Positions 26,468 through 40,385 of a stretch of DNA of 64,000 nucleotides are shown here, piece by piece. A program made the translations under genes and the position numbers. The stretch is taken from the NCBI GenBank assembly GCA_036405135.1, contig DASWYF010000011.1:1-64000 (forward strand), given 5' to 3'. This DNA is from Verrucomicrobiia bacterium (GTDB lineage Bacteria > Verrucomicrobiota > Verrucomicrobiia > Limisphaerales > JAEYXS01). The notes beneath the pieces were generated by a model. That model made no database searches and was not told the origin of the DNA. It saw only the letters and a list, made by a program, of their open reading frames with translations. How positions within the stretch are numbered: the first letter of the stretch is position 1; every line of letters begins with the position of its first letter.

Positions 26468-27502
26468 TCACTCGCGAGTGACCCCAAAGCCCCACCGGAA
26501 TAACCCCGGTATCTTCGCTACACTTCGCACCAAAATTTTACGTGTCAAAGGATGGAACACTCCCTCCTGCAACCACCCTGCCCAGCGCAAACGCCCGCCA
26601 TATCTGCGGACATAGCTCTGGTGTACAAGTGCTTGTGTAGCTCCCCAATCCCGCTCCGCCATACTATAACCTAAAATCGCTTCCGACGCCAATCGACCCG
26701 ATTCCACCGCCAGTGACATCCCGTTACCGGTAACGGGAGGAATCATCGCGCTAGAATCCCCCACACTCAAAACACCTATGTCATCATTTTGGAAAGATTT
26801 TATCGGCAATCCAGCCACAAAACTTAACGACTCTTTATCAAAAGTGACATTTTTTAACTTTTTCGTTAACGTATAATTTTTACCACCTAGAAGCAAACCT
26901 TCCCACCGAGTTTTCAACTCTCCTATCGGCTCCTTGGTCCGGAACAAACCACAGATATTGGTCCGGTCATTCTCCACCTGACACATCCCCACATAGGCAT
27001 CGGCGCGCAAATGCATCTCCAAATCCGCCTCTAACGTCACCCCCGTTGCATGCGCCTTGATCCCGATCCAACGCCACCCTTCCGCCTCAGTCTGTACCTG
27101 CCTTCCCGTAGCTCGTACCACCCCCTGTCCATAGTCACCCGTATATCGACTCCCTGTAAGCAGATGCCCGCCCATCTTCACAAACATTTCCGCCAAAATC
27201 CCATCCAGCCGGTAACGTGAAATACAGAGCGCCGGCTTTGGCAGAGACATCACCTCCGTCACAGTATCCTCAGCATACCATTTCACCGTCTTCGCCTCCC
27301 TCGCTCCCTCCCTCATCGCCGCATCACCAATCCCCCAACCCCTCAGAATCTCCAACCCCTCACCGCTCAGAAACTCCCCGCACACCCGATGCCGAGGGTA
27401 TTGCCCCGCTTCATATATTGTCACCGGCACACCCTCCTTCCGTAACGCGATACCCAGCGTCAATCCCGCCAACCCACCGCCGATGATGGTAATGGGTTTC
27501 AT
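26468..27502 (-). CDS. FAD-dependent oxidoreductase of a type III PKS cluster
   Basis: A 344-residue flavoprotein of the geranylgeranyl reductase / PHBH-like superfamily. The FAD-binding Rossmann motif is at the very N-terminus (ITIIGGGLAGLTLGIALRKEG), followed by YPRHRVCGEFLSGEGLEIL, and the second FAD motif is VLSVGDSSAMIPPVTGNGMSLAVESG. It lies downstream of a methyltransferase and a type III polyketide synthase on the same strand. That trio is a recurring bacterial cluster making alkylresorcinol or alkylpyrone-type lipids, and this enzyme would oxidise or hydroxylate the polyketide product. The last step and exact product are inferred. Confidence 0.85.
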   Translation of the reverse strand: MKPITIIGGGLAGLTLGIALRKEGVPVTIYEAGQYPRHRVCGEFLSGEGLEILRGWGIGDAAMREGAREAKTVKWYAEDTVTEVMSLPKPALCISRYRLDGILAEMFVKMGGHLLTGSRYTGDYGQGVVRATGRQVQTEAEGWRWIGIKAHATGVTLEADLEMHLRADAYVGMCQVENDRTNICGLFRTKEPIGELKTRWEGLLLGGKNYTLTKKLKNVTFDKESLSFVAGLPIKSFQNDDIGVLSVGDSSAMIPPVTGNGMSLAVESGRLASEAILGYSMAERDWGATQALVHQSYVRRYGGRLRWAGWLQEGVFHPLTRKILVRSVAKIPGLFRWGFGVTRE

Positions 27503-27571
27503 GTTCTGTCACGAGCGGACTTCGAAGGATGACAACCGATAACCCAACTCACTTACCCAAGCCATATACGC

Positions 27572-27643
27572 GGCAAATGTTATCTCCCTCTCCCCAATGG
27601 GCAGGCCGAGCTTCGGCGAGAGGGCCGGGGTGATGGGGAAAGC
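27572..27643 (+). repeat. Dispersed repeat A, copy 2 (72 bp)
   Basis: Nearly identical to 231-302 and in the same orientation; similarity fades after CAAAGCAAAAGCAG at about 27664. It fills most of the spacer between the methyltransferase and FAD oxidoreductase genes. The small reading frames here are products of the repeat, not genes. Confidence 0.8.
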
Positions 27644-27717
27644 GACTCGCCAAAGCAAAAGCAGCGCTCGCTCCACCCAAATCATTTCGATTCCCATTCT
27701 ACATCTCATGGCAAACT

Positions 27718-28422
27718 TTATACTTCAGAAGATATTTTGCGCGCTCCGAAACAATGACTGAACAAACCTTTCGCCTGCTCTTTCTTCACCCAAGTGAACC
27801 CCTTCAGCCAAAGCTGTGAAAGTTCTTCCCCCACAAAACCCGCCTTCACACTCACCGGCGCATCATGCCGCGTCACATGATTGCAGCCGATCAAGCCCAG
27901 CAATTGCGAATTCAATAGCGCAAACTTCGAACGCCTCGGCTCGCATGCGATGAACGCTTCCGTCTTCGCTGCAATCAGCGATAACATCCTACGCAACTGC
28001 TCATCCTCGAAATGATGCAGAAACAGATTCGTCGTGATGAGATCACAGCGTGGTGTCTGTATGGCGCCTAACCACTCGAAAACATCCGCTGTCACCACCT
28101 CCACCTGCTTCGCACGCTCGCGTAGCCTCGCCAGCGTCTCCACGCTCACCACAGGTTGACGATCCAGCAACACCACTCGCTCGGGCCGCCAACCTGTGCG
28201 CTCCAGCAATTGAATCAGTAAAGTCCCATCCCCCGTCGCCAGCTCCACCAACGTTTTCGGCGGCGATAACTTCAACTCCCGTGCCATGCCGTTCAAAAGT
28301 CCCGCATTGCCCATCAACGCATTCAATCGACGTAAATCCCCCCGCGAATGCACCGCCTCCGGCGCACTCGCTGGCAATTCATCCAGCAACTCCGGCCTAA
28401 GTTTTCTCCCTGCTAAGCTCAT
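27718..28422 (-). CDS. SAM-dependent methyltransferase of a type III PKS cluster
   Basis: A class I methyltransferase of 234 residues. Motif I is LVELATGDGTLLIQLLE, followed by the acidic residue of VVLLDRQP, then VVTADVFEWL and LITTNLFLHHFEDEQL. The HHF.D and EP motifs (ACEPRRS) are common in small-molecule O- or C-methyltransferases. ATG 28422 has GAGG about 10 bases upstream; the frame runs on to 28464 without conserved sequence. Between a type III PKS and an FAD enzyme, it probably methylates the polyketide ring. Confidence 0.85.
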   Translation of the reverse strand: MSLAGRKLRPELLDELPASAPEAVHSRGDLRRLNALMGNAGLLNGMARELKLSPPKTLVELATGDGTLLIQLLERTGWRPERVVLLDRQPVVSVETLARLRERAKQVEVVTADVFEWLGAIQTPRCDLITTNLFLHHFEDEQLRRMLSLIAAKTEAFIACEPRRSKFALLNSQLLGLIGCNHVTRHDAPVSVKAGFVGEELSQLWLKGFTWVKKEQAKGLFSHCFGARKISSEV

Positions 28423-28498
28423 ATGTATCAATCCTCGTCCCAAACTGGACTTTGAGGCTTTCAATCACCGCCGTAACAAAGAACCTCACCCAATCCAT

Positions 28499-28556
28499 CT
28501 TCCTCATTCGTCATTGCTCATTCCTTCGTCATTCGGGCTTGGAAATTGGTCATTCC
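28499..28556 (+). repeat. Dispersed repeat F (TCATTCCTTCGTCATTCGG type)
   Basis: Contains TCATTGCTCATTCCTTCGTC followed by ATTCGGGCTTGG and TTGGTCATTCC. Related copies lie at 29672-29812 (an inverted pair) and 58971-59009. It occupies the spacer between the methyltransferase and PKS genes. Confidence 0.7.
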
Positions 28557-28572
28557 GTATCCACCTCGCCCT

Positions 28573-29634
28573 TCACCCCTCAACCTTTACAAGCGCTCCA
28601 TGACAACTAAACCCCGCACCAAATGAACTCAACCACCACCACCCACCATGCTCATTTCCACTCAACGCCCGCTGCATCACGAAATAAAGCGAGGCACTGC
28701 TGATGTTCCCGTAATCATGGAGAACCGAGGCACTCCATTTCAAATCCTCTTCCCGCAACACTAACCGCTCCTGCAACGCGCGTAAGATGTCGCGTCCGCC
28801 CGGATGCAATATCCACGCCGCGATCTGTTCCTTAGAAATCTTATTCCGCGCCAGCACCGTCGTCAGCACTTCCTCCACAAACTTCGCCGCGATGCCCGGC
28901 ACCTGACGCGCCAGAATATTTCGCAACAATCCGTGACGTTGCTCAAAGCGTAGGTAATCCCGGTCCGCTGCACTCAGCACCGTATCCGCATCCAGCCATT
29001 CCACACACCGTTGATGCGCTGGTGCCTCGGCTGAAACCACTGCTGCCCCTGCCCCATCCCCAAAAAGGCAATTACTGATCAGCACACCCGGATCATCATC
29101 CACATACAGCGCCGCACTGCACACCTCCACACAGATCGAAAGCACCTGTTTCGCGCGACCTGATGCCAGTAACGTCTCGCATGTCCGTAAATTCGGAATC
29201 GCCGCGCCACAACCCTGCCCCACCAAATCCAACGCCAATACATTTGCGCGCAATCCTAACCGTTCAGAAACATAACTCGTCAGCCCTGGACACAGATAAC
29301 CCGTGCACGTACTGATCACTACCGCATCGATCTCCTCCACCGTCACCCGCGCATCCTCCGAAGCTTTCAATGCCGCCTCTGTGCACAACGCCGGAGCCGC
29401 CGTGGCAAAGCGTTGATGCAACACATCCGGCGTTATCTCAAACGCACTGCTTAACGGAGAAACTGAAAAATGACGCGTCGCAATTCCGTTCGAACCCGAA
29501 AGCACCTTCCGCAAAATCGCCCGTGAACGATCCGGCAGCCGCGCAAAAGGCTCCGCCGATTGAAAAGCCTGCCAGCACTCTTCTTGAGTGTAGCGATGCG
29601 CAGGAACCGCCGTGCCCAGTCCGGCAATGAACAT
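28573..29634 (-). CDS. Type III polyketide synthase
   Basis: A 353-residue chalcone/stilbene synthase-family enzyme, which extends an acyl starter with malonyl-CoA on one active site and cyclises the chain. The triad is complete: Cys142 in LDLVGQGCGAAIPNL, His277 in WILHPGGRDIL and Asn310 in HDYGNISSAS. Other signatures are VVISTCTGYLCPGLTSYV and LFGDGAGAAVV. Length is normal. The SDRSRAIL-like N-terminal part and the partner genes suggest an alkylresorcinol or alkylpyrone synthase that takes long acyl starters. The cluster runs PKS, methyltransferase, FAD oxidoreductase. Product identity cannot be read from sequence. Confidence 0.92.
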   Translation of the reverse strand: MFIAGLGTAVPAHRYTQEECWQAFQSAEPFARLPDRSRAILRKVLSGSNGIATRHFSVSPLSSAFEITPDVLHQRFATAAPALCTEAALKASEDARVTVEEIDAVVISTCTGYLCPGLTSYVSERLGLRANVLALDLVGQGCGAAIPNLRTCETLLASGRAKQVLSICVEVCSAALYVDDDPGVLISNCLFGDGAGAAVVSAEAPAHQRCVEWLDADTVLSAADRDYLRFEQRHGLLRNILARQVPGIAAKFVEEVLTTVLARNKISKEQIAAWILHPGGRDILRALQERLVLREEDLKWSASVLHDYGNISSASLYFVMQRALSGNEHGGWWWLSSFGAGFSCHGALVKVEG

Positions 29635-32435: not shown

Positions 32436-34025
32436 TTACCGATACGAATCGCCACTAGTCCTGCTGCTCTTCTCTCGTGGCAGAGGAACATCCTTCAGCA
32501 ACACCTGATTATCCTCCCTCCACTTCGCCGCCTGCCAGCGGGACCAATTGCTCGTGCGCCAATCATCCGTCCCATGCGTCCATCGCCCAACCAGTCGCTC
32601 CATCACCCGTTGTTTCTCCGTTGCATCCAACTTATCCAAGCACCTCACCATCACCGGCACTGCATCCGCGCTTAAGAGCAGCAGATAATCAAGATCCCAA
32701 TTTTTCCCCGCCTCTTTACGGCTCAACTGATGCTCGGCGATACGGGCATCAGGATTGTAGATGTTCAACGCAAAGACCATCACGAATGCCGCCATCACAA
32801 TGCCCGGTGCAAAGTAAGGGCGTTTATCGCGCAATACCGTCAGCGCCAGCCAAAGCGCCGCGAACCCCAGCCAGCACAAGACCGCCGCCGCATACAGCCT
32901 TTGCTCCGTCAGTCCGTATGCCTCGAGATACATCGCAAGTCGTTTGAAAGCCGAAGCCATCACCACCCCTAGCTGAATCAACAAGCACACCGCCAATCTG
33001 CGGAATCGGGTTTTGCTTTCACTCCCCTTCCATAACCAATCGCAGACCAGCAACAAAGGCAGCACGAGCGCAGACACTGCGATCAATTCAAAGAAGCCAT
33101 TCCGAAAATATTCCGCGTAAGAAAGATTCGCCGTGCGTTGCACCAGCGCGTTCCCGCCAAAGAGGTATTGCACCTGAAAGATGATGAAGACGAGGAAGAG
33201 CCCGTTCAGTGCCGTCAGCAGCACGCCCACTTCGATACCCCCCAGCAACTCCGGCGAAACTGGCTCATCCGAACTGTCCTTCACTTCACGCGGCCACAAC
33301 CAGTAAAAAATACCCGCGCCCAACCAAGTGAAGACCGCGATAAAAAACGCATGTGCGACAATGTCATTGATATTGAAATCAAACAGGGAACGGACGAAAT
33401 CGCGGAAGATCGTATCCGCCGAAGCGAACAAAGCAGCGAACACTATAAAAATCGGGACGGTGATGATTAGTCCCACAAAGTACCGCAAACCCTTTGTCCA
33501 GAAACCCGTCTCACCCAAGCGACCTGCCAGCGAACTCTTCATCAGCCAGCTGCCGATCACCTGAAACGCACCAATCAACGGCAGAACGATTCCGCCCGCC
33601 ATCCGCACCCCTGTCAGGATAACGCCCCCCAAGTTCACCCGTCCTTTTCCTGCCAGCCAAAACGCGAGCCCCGCTGTGCCCAGCATGGACATCAAGTTCA
33701 GAAACTGCAGTCCTTCCGCATCTCGCCAGCCAAAGAGCACGCTGAACACAAGCGAAACACCAAACCAGAAACCTTGCGCTCGGCTCATGCATCTGCGTTC
33801 TTGGCCGAACAACAACAGCACTGACACCCCTATGAACAGAATCCAGGCGGAGATGTTCAATCCGAATGGTGTCACGCGCAGCAGGGAATCGCCCACCACG
33901 CCCACACTCAGCATGCCGAGCAGCCACCAGTGCAATCCTTGCGGCGCTCTTCCCTTTCCATCCTCCATGGCCTTCGCCGATGAAGCATCAGCGAGAGAGT
34001 GCAATGTTTCGGGTATCGATTTCAT
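32436..34025 (-). CDS. DUF4173 membrane protein
   Basis: A 529-residue protein with about 12 membrane segments. The late pattern NPDARIAEHQLSRKEAGKNWDLDYLLLLSADAVPVM, in the soluble C-terminal part, is typical of the DUF4173 / DUF4153 family (NPDA.IA.yN..R....ldl.YL..L..DavP). ATG 34025 has AAGGAA at good spacing. It starts 25 bases after the DUF1361 stop, so the two are an operon. Function is not known; such proteins often sit with sensor or envelope genes. Confidence 0.85.
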   Translation of the reverse strand: MKSIPETLHSLADASSAKAMEDGKGRAPQGLHWWLLGMLSVGVVGDSLLRVTPFGLNISAWILFIGVSVLLLFGQERRCMSRAQGFWFGVSLVFSVLFGWRDAEGLQFLNLMSMLGTAGLAFWLAGKGRVNLGGVILTGVRMAGGIVLPLIGAFQVIGSWLMKSSLAGRLGETGFWTKGLRYFVGLIITVPIFIVFAALFASADTIFRDFVRSLFDFNINDIVAHAFFIAVFTWLGAGIFYWLWPREVKDSSDEPVSPELLGGIEVGVLLTALNGLFLVFIIFQVQYLFGGNALVQRTANLSYAEYFRNGFFELIAVSALVLPLLLVCDWLWKGSESKTRFRRLAVCLLIQLGVVMASAFKRLAMYLEAYGLTEQRLYAAAVLCWLGFAALWLALTVLRDKRPYFAPGIVMAAFVMVFALNIYNPDARIAEHQLSRKEAGKNWDLDYLLLLSADAVPVMVRCLDKLDATEKQRVMERLVGRWTHGTDDWRTSNWSRWQAAKWREDNQVLLKDVPLPREKSSRTSGDSYR

Positions 34026-34050: not shown

Positions 34051-34797
34051 CTATCGGCGCTCATTCTGGGTGTGGGACGTGGCAGGCACCGGCCAGGACG
34101 ACAGGCCGGAAAGCAGGACATAACAAAGGGTCAAAAAGACAAAGAAGACGCCGGTGAAACGCAGCGTGTAACGAAAACTCTCCATGGAGCCGAACATCAT
34201 CCGCACGTCTGCGATCAAAACGTGTGGCTCCGTGAGCACCGACCAACTGTTCCACCGCTCGATGCGCCCGAGATAGATGCCGAACCCGCATAACGCCAGC
34301 ACACCGAACACGAACAGCCAGCCTTGCATCCATCCACGCCGTTCCGCCACCACATCGTGGATCAACCGCAGTGAAACAAATCCCAGCGCCACACCCGTGA
34401 ACGCAAACGCAGCGAACAAGGCCGCATCAAACCACGTCGGCACCGGCGTGTGATGCCGCAGATGAATGAGATCTGTGACGATGTAGGACGCATTCGGCAA
34501 GAACAACAACCACATCACTCCTACGATCAATGTCCTTGGACACCATCCCCACCAACGAAATGACTGGCGGGTGACAATCGCAAAGACGAGCGGCAACCAC
34601 GCCAGAAAAAGATTCCAGATGAGGTAGCCAAAATGAAACTGCTTCGTCACAAATACCCGTCCACTCCACAACACTCCGCATAAGAACGTCGCTGTGATGA
34701 GTGCTAAACCGATGCGCCACATCGCTGACACCGGCATGAATGCGTTTCGATTCGAATCGCCGGTATACACACCGGCACGAGAGTGCAATGTCTCCAT
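34051..34797 (-). CDS. DUF1361 membrane protein
   Basis: A 248-residue protein with seven hydrophobic helices and the DUF1361 markers: YLIWNLFLAWLPLVFA, WLLFLPNASYIVTDLIHLR and TWFDAALFAAFAFTGV. The start at 34797 is supported by AGGAGG 9 bases upstream, although residues 1-22 are polar and an internal ATG at 34737 is also possible. It is first of a same-strand set with DUF4173 and the CFI-box gene. No biochemical role is known for this family. Confidence 0.88.
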   Translation of the reverse strand: METLHSRAGVYTGDSNRNAFMPVSAMWRIGLALITATFLCGVLWSGRVFVTKQFHFGYLIWNLFLAWLPLVFAIVTRQSFRWWGWCPRTLIVGVMWLLFLPNASYIVTDLIHLRHHTPVPTWFDAALFAAFAFTGVALGFVSLRLIHDVVAERRGWMQGWLFVFGVLALCGFGIYLGRIERWNSWSVLTEPHVLIADVRMMFGSMESFRYTLRFTGVFFVFLTLCYVLLSGLSSWPVPATSHTQNERR

Positions 34798-35587: not shown

Positions 35588-36464
35588 GTGTTTTCTCCTC
35601 CCTTGGTATTGGTGTGTTTGGTTGAAATTGAGCAGCAATCTCCTTCAGCCGCGCTTCCACGGCATCAATGATTGAATCCGGCGTAGAAGTGCCTGCCGTG
35701 AGGCCGACGACTTCTGCATACGTGAACCACTCGGCCTTCAAATCTGCCGGCGATTGCACGTGATGCACATAGGGGCATTGACGCCAGCAGGTGTTCACGA
35801 GTTCCTTCGTGTTGTTGCTGTTCGCACCACCGATGACGATGACCACATCACTCTGCTGCGCGAGTTCTTCTGCGGCTTGCTGACGTTGCTTCGTGGGCTG
35901 GCAAACTGTATCGACAAACTTCACCTCGCTGTGTGGGAAACGCTCTTTCAATTGCGCGACCAGTTCACGCACGCGAGCAATCGGCTGGGTGGTTTGTGAA
36001 ACGACACCAAACCTTTCATGCGGGGATAGCGCCTCGATGTCCTGCTCAGTCAGCACGACATCACAGGCATCCAAATCACCCGTCAAACCGCGCACCTCCA
36101 CATGATTGCGCTGGCCGATGATGATCGGGTGATAACCCGCACGCACGAGCTTTAACACGGAGTTATGCGCGTGGTGAACCAAAGGGCATGTGGCCTCGAA
36201 CACTTCCAATCCCTGATCGCGAATATGGGCGAGGTGGCGCTGAGACGTGCCATGGGCGGTGATGAGTACACTCGGCGTGGTCACATCATTGACCTGTTCA
36301 GCCATTCTCACGCCGTGTTGTTTGAGATCGTTGAGGACGGTTTCGTTGTGGACGAGTTGACCCAAGATGGTCACGGGTTGCTGGGCGGCGTGGGCTTTCG
36401 CAAGGGCAATGGCATCACGAACGCCGAAGCACATGCCGAGATGTTCTGCGCGGAGAATTTTCAT
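35565..36464 (-). CDS. ispH: 4-hydroxy-3-methylbut-2-enyl diphosphate reductase
   Basis: IspH (LytB) makes isopentenyl and dimethylallyl diphosphate in the last step of the MEP isoprenoid pathway, using a [4Fe-4S] cluster. The three cluster Cys are present: Cys12 in LGMCFGV, Cys93 in EATCPLVHHAH and Cys188 in VDTVCQPTKQRQ. The active-site Glu is in NHVEVRGLTG, with TAHGTS and the family GGANSNNTKELV and GLTAGTSTPDSIIDAV. Length is about 299 residues, normal. ATG 36464 has AGGA at the right distance; the frame to 36641 is non-coding. An operator-like palindrome lies 184 bases upstream. Confidence 0.95.
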   Translation of the reverse strand: MKILRAEHLGMCFGVRDAIALAKAHAAQQPVTILGQLVHNETVLNDLKQHGVRMAEQVNDVTTPSVLITAHGTSQRHLAHIRDQGLEVFEATCPLVHHAHNSVLKLVRAGYHPIIIGQRNHVEVRGLTGDLDACDVVLTEQDIEALSPHERFGVVSQTTQPIARVRELVAQLKERFPHSEVKFVDTVCQPTKQRQQAAEELAQQSDVVIVIGGANSNNTKELVNTCWRQCPYVHHVQSPADLKAEWFTYAEVVGLTAGTSTPDSIIDAVEARLKEIAAQFQPNTPIPREEKTHELATLL

Positions 36465-36647: not shown

Positions 36648-36664
36648 ACTTTGTATCGCAAAGT
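36648..36664. promoter_or_regulatory. Operator-like palindrome upstream of ispH
   Basis: ACTTTG TATCG CAAAGT. It matches the perfect palindrome at 37653-37669 in both arms and in total length (17 bp). It lies between the regulator gene (ends 36718) and ispH (starts 36464), so the same regulator could act on ispH transcription. Inferred from the sequence match only. Confidence 0.6.
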
Positions 36665-36717
36665 TACTGTGCAGCAGCGACTTGATGAAGATACGAGTTT
36701 CATAACGGGTTATCGGG

Positions 36718-37023
36718 TCAACCTTTGGTCTGTTTTACGATCCGCTCGAGCAAATCGATGTAATCTTGGAATGCTTTGCGTCCCGCTGGCGTAAGCGAGC
36801 AGGTCGTTAGCGGACGTTTTTCGTGAACGCTCTTCGTCACGGCGATGTATCCAGCCTGTTGCAGCGTACGGATGTGCGTCGTGATGTTGCCATCCGTCAT
36901 ATTGAGCGCATTGCGCAGTTCCGTGAACGACAGCTCGTCCCGCGCCGCGAGCAGGGACATGATCGCCATGCGTCCCTTCTCGTGGATGACACGGTCCAGC
37001 TGTAAAAAAGGTTCTGGATTCAC
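36718..37023 (-). CDS. Winged-helix transcriptional regulator
   Basis: A 101-residue one-domain DNA-binding protein. It reads QLDRVIHEKGRMAIMSLLAA, then LSFTELRNALNMTDGNITTH (the recognition helix), then LQQAGYIAVTKSVHEKRPLTTC (the wing), then SLTPAGRKAF. This is the layout of the short MarR/ArsR-related HTH_34 class. The start is GTG at 37023, overlapping the upstream stop (GTGA), which fixes it better than the long frame to 37275. With its membrane partner it forms a two-gene operon headed by a perfect palindrome, so autoregulation is likely. Confidence 0.85.
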   Translation of the reverse strand: MNPEPFLQLDRVIHEKGRMAIMSLLAARDELSFTELRNALNMTDGNITTHIRTLQQAGYIAVTKSVHEKRPLTTCSLTPAGRKAFQDYIDLLERIVKQTKG

Positions 37024-37646
37024 GGTGCATTTCCACGTTTTTCCGTAAAGTGCAGGTATATCCCATAGGCCAGGTGGACGCCGCCGAATACGGCTCCCAT
37101 TACCAGATGGTTTTCCTGCACGGAAAGTTTGAGCCACTGCGGCCAGAGCACGAATAACATCACCACTGCCAGCAGCAGATAAAGCCACCCGAAGAGTTTG
37201 ATGCCACGTGGCATGAAAAAACCCGCCGCGCACAAGGCACACCCATAAAATAGCATCCAAATGACAATTAGCCACGGAATGACTTCCGCAGAGGTAGCCC
37301 AGCGTAGCACGATAGCGAGTGTCAGCATCGCAGCCGACGCAAATCCAGGAATCGAAGCCAACGTGATCCGGCGCGTGGGAGCAGACCAGAATGCCTCCTT
37401 ATCATTCACTGCCTGTTTCCGCACCAAGATCAAAGCCCCCGCATTGATGATCACTGCCGCTGACACCCAATGCGCGATGAACATCGCGGCTTGGTCTATT
37501 TTGGCAAACCATCCGACCGCCGCCGCCACCAATCCCAACGCCCCCGCCAGAATGGTCATCGGCGCCAGCGCCCGGCGATACATGACCGAGCGCTCCATGA
37601 GCGTTCGTATCACTTGCAGGTTCTCGCTGGCCCAATCGGAGTTCAT
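37020..37646 (-). CDS. Membrane partner of the winged-helix regulator
   Basis: A 208-residue integral membrane protein with six hydrophobic helices (first about 28-48, last about 182-200), starting with a polar segment NSDWASENLQVIRTLMERS. I know no function. Similar membrane genes are commonly found in front of short HTH_34 regulators. Its stop overlaps the regulator's GTG start by four bases, so both are made together. The start at 37646 lies 7 bases from a perfect 17-bp palindrome. Confidence 0.78.
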   Translation of the reverse strand: MNSDWASENLQVIRTLMERSVMYRRALAPMTILAGALGLVAAAVGWFAKIDQAAMFIAHWVSAAVIINAGALILVRKQAVNDKEAFWSAPTRRITLASIPGFASAAMLTLAIVLRWATSAEVIPWLIVIWMLFYGCALCAAGFFMPRGIKLFGWLYLLLAVVMLFVLWPQWLKLSVQENHLVMGAVFGGVHLAYGIYLHFTEKRGNAP

Positions 37647-37652
37647 ACTGAT

Positions 37653-37669
37653 ACTTTGTAATACAAAGT
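37653..37669. promoter_or_regulatory. Perfect operator-like palindrome of the regulator operon
   Basis: ACTTTGTA A TACAAAGT, a perfect 8-bp inverted repeat around one base. It is directly upstream of the membrane protein/regulator operon, where a bound repressor would block the promoter or ribosome site. A half-degenerate copy is at 36648-36664. Confidence 0.7.
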
Positions 37670-37745
37670 CTATATGTCAAGTGTTCAAAAAATTTGTGAA
37701 CAATTTCGCATTGCACCCTGAGCAGCCCTGAACCAAGTTTGGGTT

Positions 37746-38509: not shown

Positions 38510-39139
38510 ATGGCCAAAGTACTTTACATCGAAGCCTCGCCCCGCAAGGAACGTTCCGCCTCCATCGAGGTGGCTCAGAACTTCCTGAACGCTTACCGCG
38601 CGGCAAACCCACAAGATACAGTGGAAACACTTGACCTCTGGGCCACGGAGTTGCCGCGGTTCGATCAATCCACCATCGATGCCAAGTATGCCATCATGCA
38701 TGGACAGCCGCACACGGCGGAGCAGAAGGCGGCTTGGGAAGCGGTGGAACGAATCGCGGCGCAGTTCAAGTCGGCGGACAAATATGTGATCTCGCTCCCG
38801 ATGTGGAATTTCGGCGTGCCATATATCCTGAAACACTACATCGACGTGCTGCTGCAACCCGGCCTCACGTTCAGCTTCACGCCGAGTGAAGGCTACAAAG
38901 GCCTGGTGACAGGCAAGCCCGCGCTCGTGATCTACGCCCAAGGCGGCCAATACCCGAAAGGCACGCCGTGGGAGAACTACGATCTCCAGAGCAAATATCT
39001 GGAACTCGTGCTCGGCTTCATCGGCTTCACGGATGTGAAGTCCGTGTATGTGAACGGCACGCTCAACGGTGCGGACGGCAAAGAAAAAGCCGTGACCGCA
39101 GGAACTACCGAAGCCGTGGCTTTGGCCCACCAGTTCTGA
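38510..39139 (+). CDS. azoR: FMN-dependent NADH azoreductase
   Basis: A 209-residue flavodoxin-fold reductase of the AzoR family, which reduces quinones and azo compounds with NADH using FMN. It has VLYIEASPRKERSASIEVA (phosphate-binding loop for FMN), SLPMWNFGVPYILKHYIDV (the PMWNF loop that grips the flavin), GLTFSFTPSEGYKGLVTGK and YAQGGQYPKGTPWENYD. It is cytoplasmic and probably a dimer. It heads an operon with DoxX and pirin genes, a common set for quinone and electrophile stress. Sigma-54-like elements and a 38-bp palindrome lie upstream. Confidence 0.93.
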   Translation: MAKVLYIEASPRKERSASIEVAQNFLNAYRAANPQDTVETLDLWATELPRFDQSTIDAKYAIMHGQPHTAEQKAAWEAVERIAAQFKSADKYVISLPMWNFGVPYILKHYIDVLLQPGLTFSFTPSEGYKGLVTGKPALVIYAQGGQYPKGTPWENYDLQSKYLELVLGFIGFTDVKSVYVNGTLNGADGKEKAVTAGTTEAVALAHQF

Positions 39140-39173
39140 CACTCAACCAGAACACATAACTAAGAACTGATTT

Positions 39174-39638
39174 ATGAAAGCCCTGAAACTCTTTTTCCAA
39201 ACGCGTGAAGACTTCGCTCCCGTGATCATGCGTGTCGGCCTCGCGGTCGTAATGTTTCCGCACGGTGCGCAGAAGGTGCTCGGCTGGTTCGGTGGTTACG
39301 GATTTGAAGGGACGATGAAGTTCTTCACCGAGAACATGAACATCCCTGCGCCGGTCGCTGTGTTGGCCATACTCGCGGAGTTCCTTGGGCCGATCGGACT
39401 GGTGCTAGGACTCGGCTCGCGCCTCGCGGCATTCGGCATCGGTGCGACCATCACCGTCGCCGCGCTCATGGCGCACACGGCCAATGGCTTCTTCATGAAC
39501 TGGAGCGGCAAGCAGGCCGGTGAAGGTTACGAGTATCACATCCTGATGGCCGTGCTCGCACTCGCCGTCGTGATCCAAGGCGCAGGCAAGTGGTCGCTGG
39601 ACGCGCTGGTGGCGAAGAAACTGGAATCAAAGAATTGA
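39174..39638 (+). CDS. DoxX-family membrane protein
   Basis: A 154-residue protein with four helices and the DoxX pattern: IMRVGLAVVMFPHGAQKVLGWFGGYG, FLGPIGLVLGLGSRLAAFGIG and AHTANGFFMNWSGKQAGEGYEYHILM. DoxX proteins are inner-membrane components tied to quinone or thiosulfate redox and to oxidative stress. It starts 34 bases after azoR and 51 before the pirin gene, so it is the middle gene of the operon. The exact reaction is unknown. Confidence 0.9.
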   Translation: MKALKLFFQTREDFAPVIMRVGLAVVMFPHGAQKVLGWFGGYGFEGTMKFFTENMNIPAPVAVLAILAEFLGPIGLVLGLGSRLAAFGIGATITVAALMAHTANGFFMNWSGKQAGEGYEYHILMAVLALAVVIQGAGKWSLDALVAKKLESKN

Positions 39639-39689
39639 ACCAAAAAACAGATTTGTTGCGAAACCTGAAATAAAGAGAAAGCTAAACGT

Positions 39690-40385
39690 ATGATCGTGAA
39701 ACGCCCATCCAATGAACGTGGACATGCCAACTTCGGCTGGTTGGATTCTTATCACACGTTCTCCTTTGCGAACTATTATGATCCTCAGCACATGAGCTTC
39801 CGCTCGTTGCGCGTGATCAATGAGGATCGCGTGGCCGGTGGCGGCGGATTCGATACGCATCCGCACCGCGATATGGAGATCGTCACTTACGTGTTAAGCG
39901 GCGCACTCCAACATCGCGACAGCCTCGGTAACAGCGAGGTCATCAAGGCCGGTGATGTGCAGCGCATGACCGCCGGTGCGGGCATCCAACACAGCGAATT
40001 CAATTACTCGCCCATCGAGCCCGTGCATCTGCTGCAGATCTGGCTGCTGCCGGAGAAAAAGGGCCTGCGCCCTGGCTACGAACAGAAGTCCATCCTCGGC
40101 GTGCAACCGGGCACCTGGTCCACCGTCGCGGCGAAAGAACCGGGCGAAGGCACCTTGAAGATCCATCAAGATGTCACGCTCAGCGCGGGCAAGCTCACGC
40201 CGGATAAGAGCCTGAGCTACACGCTCGCCACCGGTCGCCATGCGTGGGTGCAAGTGGTGGAAGGCCCCGTCACGCTGAACGGTGTGACGCTGGAATCCGG
40301 CGATGGCGCCGCCGTGAGCGATGAGCAACAGCTCTCGTTCAGCACGTCGGATAAAGGGCACCTGTTGCTCTTTGATCTGGCTTAA
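39690..40385 (+). CDS. Pirin-family protein (YhhW-like quercetinase)
   Basis: A 231-residue bicupin. The metal site is intact: His57 and His59 in DTHPHRDMEIVTYV and His101 and Glu103 in GIQHSEFN, the same set as in human pirin and E. coli YhhW. The start RPSNERGHANFGWLDSYHTF is the usual pirin opening. YhhW opens the ring of quercetin with oxygen; related proteins act as redox sensors. It is the last gene of the azoR/doxX operon and is closed by a strong terminator at 40400-40433. Confidence 0.92.
   Translation: MIVKRPSNERGHANFGWLDSYHTFSFANYYDPQHMSFRSLRVINEDRVAGGGGFDTHPHRDMEIVTYVLSGALQHRDSLGNSEVIKAGDVQRMTAGAGIQHSEFNYSPIEPVHLLQIWLLPEKKGLRPGYEQKSILGVQPGTWSTVAAKEPGEGTLKIHQDVTLSAGKLTPDKSLSYTLATGRHAWVQVVEGPVTLNGVTLESGDGAAVSDEQQLSFSTSDKGHLLLFDLA

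Follow-up and report, generated by a model that had tools for sequence, protein, structure and literature searches.

In the SdpR/SdpI pair, the membrane protein SdpI sequesters the regulator SdpR. The sdpRI locus of Bacillus subtilis encodes its own repressor together with an integral membrane protein, according to the part of the account cited here (PMC6818787). A second point of reference is lytB1 of Mycobacterium tuberculosis (Rv3382c), described in the cited portion of its source as an accessory, non-essential second IspH within the isotuberculosinol operon (PMC3470408). The locus reported here lies in a window of 64,000 nucleotides (the whole stretch of DNA analysed) and combines a winged-helix regulator, a membrane protein and an ispH gene around two palindromes, S1 and S2 (Table 1). 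The named genomes closest to that of the window are Verrucomicrobia assembled from metagenomes, most of them carrying the label Limisphaerales, Pedosphaera or “Verrucomicrobia subdivision 3.” From conservation, position, co-occurrence and the movement of the operator with its targets, we infer, and consider likely, a circuit in which the regulator would bind S1 and S2 as a repressor and be relieved by its membrane partner in the manner of SdpR/SdpI.

Table 1. Operators and genes of the regulated locus, in window coordinates
Feature	Position	Strand	Remarks
TTGACA, -35-like element	37675..37680	-	5 nt upstream of S1; composite match G000:C11:37654-37680
Operator S1, ACTTTGTATTACAAAGT on coding strand	37653..37669	-	6 nt ahead of membrane gene start codon
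Membrane protein, 208 aa	37020..37646	-	taken as six-helix membrane protein
Regulator, 101 aa, winged-helix HTH_34 (PF13601)	36718..37023	-	GTG start
Operator S2, ACTTTGCGATACAAAGT on coding strand	36648..36664	-	between regulator and ispH
Short second IspH (LytB), 299 aa	35565..36464	-	aligned Fe-S and active-site residues intact
Ferritin-like diiron protein, 249 aa	34838..35587	-	23-nt overlap with ispH
DUF1361 membrane protein	34051..34797	-	likely same transcript
DUF4153 membrane protein	32436..34025	-	likely same transcript

The first-pass annotation of this DNA had pointed out a perfect palindrome close to the membrane gene start, a near-copy between the regulator and ispH, and a GTGA overlap of regulator and membrane gene, and all three are present. 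S1 (ACTTTGTAATACAAAGT) has perfect 8-bp arms around one central base, and the membrane gene ATG is at 37646. S2 (ACTTTGTATCGCAAAGT) has 6-bp arms and a 5-nt centre, and is located 53 bp past the regulator stop and 183 bp ahead of the ispH ATG at 36464. The regulator GTG and the membrane gene TGA share four nucleotides (37020-37023). With up to two mismatches the motif has four matches in the window against 2.2 expected, which is unremarkable, and the two exact ones are S1 and S2. The genome scan, proposed in that annotation as a check for a randomly frequent motif, found only three exact copies of the 12-base core in the 5.8 Mb genome and none of a reversed control pattern. The third exact core (C10:226536) lies 23 bp upstream of three successive ORFs for small membrane proteins and comes with a TTGAC box spaced as at S1.

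The arrangement is conserved. Among the loci of 30 relatives fetched for site positions, 28 have S1 6-8 nt before the membrane gene start codon and S2 40-57 bp past the regulator stop, with ispH next in the same 28 (in one case cut off by the contig end after 19 residues). At L026 and L029, the two remaining loci, both sites and ispH are missing beside the regulator. We also examined the best 80 of 481 named loci, some of which are from the same genomes as the other set of relatives. All 80 contain a match to the membrane gene. S1 is present in 75 of the 77 scorable loci, always 4-8 nt from the start codon, and S2 in 74 of the 80, 24-54 bp past the regulator stop. The ispH gene was present in 78, and the remaining two loci stop a short way past the regulator. 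Six of the 80 showed no S2; for three of them the search frame began some 90 bp too late, as the regulator frame that was called extends further. With at most one mismatch, sites were detected in 69/80 S2 frames and 74/77 S1 frames of this best-80 set, compared with 7 of 4000 masked control frames matched in size to the S2 frame. Conservation of the core in the sequence logos is partly built in by the site picking, that of the flanking elements is not. The order site 1, membrane gene, regulator, site 2, ispH recurs across Limisphaerales. We rejected a chance match of the palindromes, given the rarity of the core, the absence of the reversed control and the conservation relative to masked frames. 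In one relative (L004:514-780, G007), many imperfect ACTTTG/CAAAGT-like repeats occur just upstream of S1.

Promoter-like elements accompany both sites. In the named loci (best 80 of 481), an exact TTGAC precedes S1 at 39 of 74 sites, compared with 89 of 8000 random 16-mers, and no -10 could be fitted to this box. At S2, a GAAC-N15-19-GTC pair ends 3-6 nt before the palindrome in 52 of 74 loci from the same best 80 (34 of 16000 random frames), with a spacing of 17 in 50 of those 52. This GAAC-N17-GTC pair resembles the E. coli sigmaE consensus, that is, a sigmaE-type ECF promoter; it was not recognisable at S2 in the three genomes of the window's own genus. A search of 116 genomes of the order for composite promoter-operator patterns yielded 56 S2-type matches versus one in the control and 64 S1-type matches versus none. 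SD-like tetramers were detected before 4 of 77 membrane gene starts and before 1 of the 25 ispH starts located no more than 9 nt from S2 (best 80 of 481 named loci). With such tetramers scarce at starts, leaderless or near-leaderless transcripts are possible.

The placement of these elements bears on how the regulator would act. As an activator, it would sit between the -35 and a poor -10 at S1 and just past the S2 promoter, helping polymerase, and the TTGAC box of S1 without a recognisable -10 is what activator-dependent promoters look like. We nevertheless consider activation unlikely, as S2 lies just after GAAC-N17-GTC, over the expected start site, where repressors typically bind, and a site overlapping the start of the regulator operon suits autorepression. 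Because the operator covers the start region of its own operon and follows the S2 promoter so closely, regulation is likely to be repression. Inverted repeats near start codons could also be RNA hairpins in 5′ leaders. However, S1 is probably not transcribed, as it directly follows a -35-like box, the arms are nearly fixed in sequence instead of varying with pairing kept, and a 6-bp A/T-rich stem is weak, which makes hairpins extremely unlikely.

The distance from S2 to the regulator stop hardly varies, while that from S2 to ispH ranges from 3 to 828 bp (best 80 of 481 named loci). This spacing, with the 183 bp between S2 and ispH in the window, would fit a role of S2 in the membrane-regulator operon only, by looping with S1 or as a roadblock or terminator, ispH being simply the next gene. 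We judge this very improbable: the GAAC-N17-GTC pair is oriented towards ispH, 25 of 73 loci in the best-80 set have S2 no more than 9 nt from the ispH start, and ispH or IspH-like genes found away from the regulator in four genomes carry the operator themselves. Such moved genes provide the strongest test, and they support an operator that follows ispH and the diiron gene elsewhere in the genome. In G013 and G038, the regulator operon is without sites (there is no S1 at the membrane gene start), and an unlinked short ispH has the operator upstream, 24 bp away in G013. In G217 and G290, from another family of the same class, an unlinked degenerate IspH-like gene is located just downstream of operators. 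Unlinked diiron genes in G021 and G031 have their own operator at the start, although in G031 the exact start is uncertain and the called frame extends past the operator. In G010, an unlinked pair of membrane genes, c5-c4, has an operator at its start.

The operator also tracks the regulator. Among 40 relatives, 33 have a regulator match (E ≤ 0.001), of which 31 are close (E < 1e-30), and the close regulator co-occurs perfectly with the short ispH (E < 1e-15): 31 genomes have both and 9 have neither. In a sample of 288 genomes from the phylum, 14 of the 16 that encode the regulator (E ≤ 1e-20) contain ACTTTGYNNNRCAAAGT, compared with 24 of the 272 without a regulator, counts for which a Fisher test ignores shared ancestry. 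The 24 genomes could suggest that another transcription factor binds the palindrome and that the HTH_34 protein is one of its targets. Against this, the operator is found at the regulator operon itself, occurs where the regulator occurs, and follows deeply diverged regulators that share one recognition region: the TDGN/SDGN residues are kept from the window to regulators of 36% identity with the same operator adjacent. A different factor is thus very unlikely. The comparative evidence supports the earlier assignment of both sites to the small regulator, which sits on its own operon, and of ispH and the diiron gene as targets, since the operator accompanies both when they are unlinked. We are highly confident that both sites are places of action of the regulator and that ispH is under its control.

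The window IspH scores above the cut-offs of TIGR00216 (263.5 vs 187.85 bits) and LYTB (PF02401; 271.5 vs 24.5 bits). We take it to be an accessory second IspH of E. coli length. Every one of the 40 relatives has one or more LytB matches, and a long-frame form about 30% identical to the window IspH is seen in nearly all. The 31 genomes with the close regulator, and no others of the 40, have the short form; in G025 (83% complete) it is the only one seen. We rejected the idea that this ispH is the housekeeping gene because the longer LytB/IspH is also present. In the window genome the long IspH is on contig C19, where no site was found with up to one mismatch. In that protein (G000:C19:16199-17221, L083), Phe replaces the His found in the ITAHG motif of the short form, as in plant and cyanobacterial IspH. 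Aligned to the solved IspH 3dnf, the three Fe-S cysteines and the substrate-binding His, Glu, Thr, Ser and Asn are present in all 22 short IspH tallied and in 4/4 proteins of family f45, in which the gene order is membrane gene, regulator, ispH, diiron gene. The residues considered important, and their numbering, are those of E. coli IspH.

IspH-fold proteins lacking all or nearly all Fe-S cysteines were encountered at L195, L197, L199, L201 and L203 (genomes G290, G217, G282, G293 and G254). In this family, f40, the first two cysteines are gone in all five members and the third in four, along with other active-site changes. The two tested still score as LYTB (98 and 93 bits vs 24.5), and f40 proteins are nearest the short form (103-130 bits, versus 23-29 bits to the one long form tested). 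In three of five (L199, L201 and L203) they are directly behind the regulator, that of L203 having been placed by a separate regulator search. These proteins are possibly a LytB pseudoenzyme family.

The protein encoded after ispH has the helical-bundle fold and the paired E and ExxH motifs of the ferritin-like superfamily. Its model shares the ferritin-like fold with R2, R2lox, aldehyde deformylating oxygenase (ADO) and AurF (Foldseek probability ~1.00 and TM ~0.5-0.6, the best E being only 7e-3), and it scores below the AurF cut-off (PF11583; 26.9 vs 29.6 bits). E73-E74-H77, E122 and D151-E152-H155 are invariant in an alignment of only 11 sequences. DUF1361 homologues adjoin the operon in at least five loci, the window included. 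Such neighbour-gene counts are minimum counts, as ORF calling was crude, with the regulator overlooked at several loci and some start codons wrongly placed. An operator at the S2 position in G117 is followed, 18 bp on, by the start of a DUF4153 gene. Elsewhere in the window, flavodoxin-fold reductase, DoxX and pirin genes (38510-40385) are divergent from the operon and, among the loci compared, were seen there only in the three genomes of this genus. A type III polyketide synthase-like gene is at 28573-29634, and further same-strand ORFs, one FAD oxidoreductase-like, come after it (27001-29634).

We fetched and inspected 53 of the 120 composite places; many of the other 67 are at known S1/S2 coordinates. 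Of 23 S2-type places, 17 precede ispH, two precede c4/c5 membrane proteins, two a BchE-like B12 radical-SAM protein, one a membrane protein and one another radical-SAM protein. Among the 30 S1-type places, 22 precede the membrane gene and eight something else, including two radical-SAM proteins. No convincing family was found for the extra membrane proteins c4 and c5. In the more distant G163 and G198, regulators of 36-39% identity and operators accompany c5-c4, in stretches where no ispH was seen. The predicted regulon would therefore also take in membrane proteins of no named family and B12 radical-SAM enzymes. BchE-like genes behind S2-type operators are at L274:3090-4814, L294:1372-2964 and L078 (site 4978), in G357, G395 and G018, and the L274 protein is over the TIGR02026 cut-off (492.1 vs 481.35 bits). 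BchH was detected in 0 of 6 genomes, so the BchE name should not be taken as a function, and a link to photosynthesis was rejected. Behind S1-type composites we also observed ORFs that read as ankyrin-repeat-like by their sequence (L324 and L082, on G402:C45 and G033:C214); one of these two genomes, 78% complete, is without a detectable regulator. A DUF2975 membrane protein (L308:1047-1568, G401:C333) starts just after an S1-type site.

In the proposed circuit, the 101-residue HTH_34 protein would bind the palindrome ACTTTGYANTRCAAAGT, presumably as a dimer. From S1, between the TTGAC -35-like box and the membrane gene start codon, it would control its own operon. From S2, which in most relatives is 3-6 nt downstream of the promoter-like pair, it would control the accessory IspH and the downstream diiron, DUF1361 and DUF4153 proteins. 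Because the regulator is paired in one operon with a membrane protein, relief is placed at the membrane: the co-translated protein would most likely hold the regulator on sensing membrane state, as SdpI does SdpR. This protein has no Pfam or NCBIfam family match, and its AlphaFold2 model consists of long helices (pLDDT 92.6) and has no solved-structure match at E ≤ 0.001. That it is the sensor is close to an even call, leaning slightly against. The first-pass annotation took the palindromes to tie isoprenoid synthesis to a membrane signal. Control of ispH is supported by the comparison, and the rest of that reading is too narrow: this ispH is the accessory copy, a long IspH is also present on a contig with no site at up to one mismatch, and the predicted regulon reaches other membrane and radical-SAM proteins, so that a tie of isoprenoid synthesis to the signal is a suggestion only. 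A tentative reading, which we hold to be possible but somewhat doubtful, is that the regulated IspH is part of a membrane-state response, not of bulk isoprenoid supply. The membrane protein, the diiron oxygenase-like protein, other membrane proteins and B12 radical-SAM enzymes would be further parts of that response. In one family a LytB pseudoenzyme would have a structural or regulatory role, with f40-type members retaining the IspH fold without catalytic and cluster-binding residues under the same regulator and operator.

Our searches of the open-licence literature turned up no report of a transcription factor having a dedicated ispH operator in these bacteria, no published copies of the motif letters and nothing on hopanoid-linked radical-SAM enzymes in Verrucomicrobia. 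Nor did they yield the target set, a second IspH in this group of bacteria or its cysteine-poor relative. With the predicted regulon, an HTH_34 regulator, a membrane family without annotation and several DUFs gain a testable function. A further question is why a bacterium with IspH retains a separately controlled second copy whose relatives can lose catalytic residues.

Several known systems share parts of this arrangement. The regulator is over the HTH_34 cut-off (100.4 vs 27 bits, residues 18-96 of 101) and its best solved match is PH1061 (1ub9) of that family. The accession PF13601 is absent from the open-licence literature searched, and the operator and targets described here set the regulator apart. 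GAAC-N17-GTC at S2 is like ECF (sigmaE-type) promoters in sequence. M. tuberculosis lytB1 is, as far as its cited source goes, also a second, accessory IspH within a specialised operon; however, that operon has terpene synthases and the two copies share 50% identity, whereas the window has a dedicated regulator, no terpene synthase noticed beside it, and two IspH forms only about 30% alike. Compared with SdpR/SdpI, the window regulator is far under the SdpR cut-off (NF033789; 21.4 vs 100 bits), its membrane protein is without a Pfam family, and its targets include an isoprenoid enzyme, with no toxin gene seen. Both systems place a tiny winged-helix regulator and a polytopic membrane protein in one operon with an operator positioned for autoregulation, and the pairing of a small regulator with a membrane partner is a known kind of arrangement.
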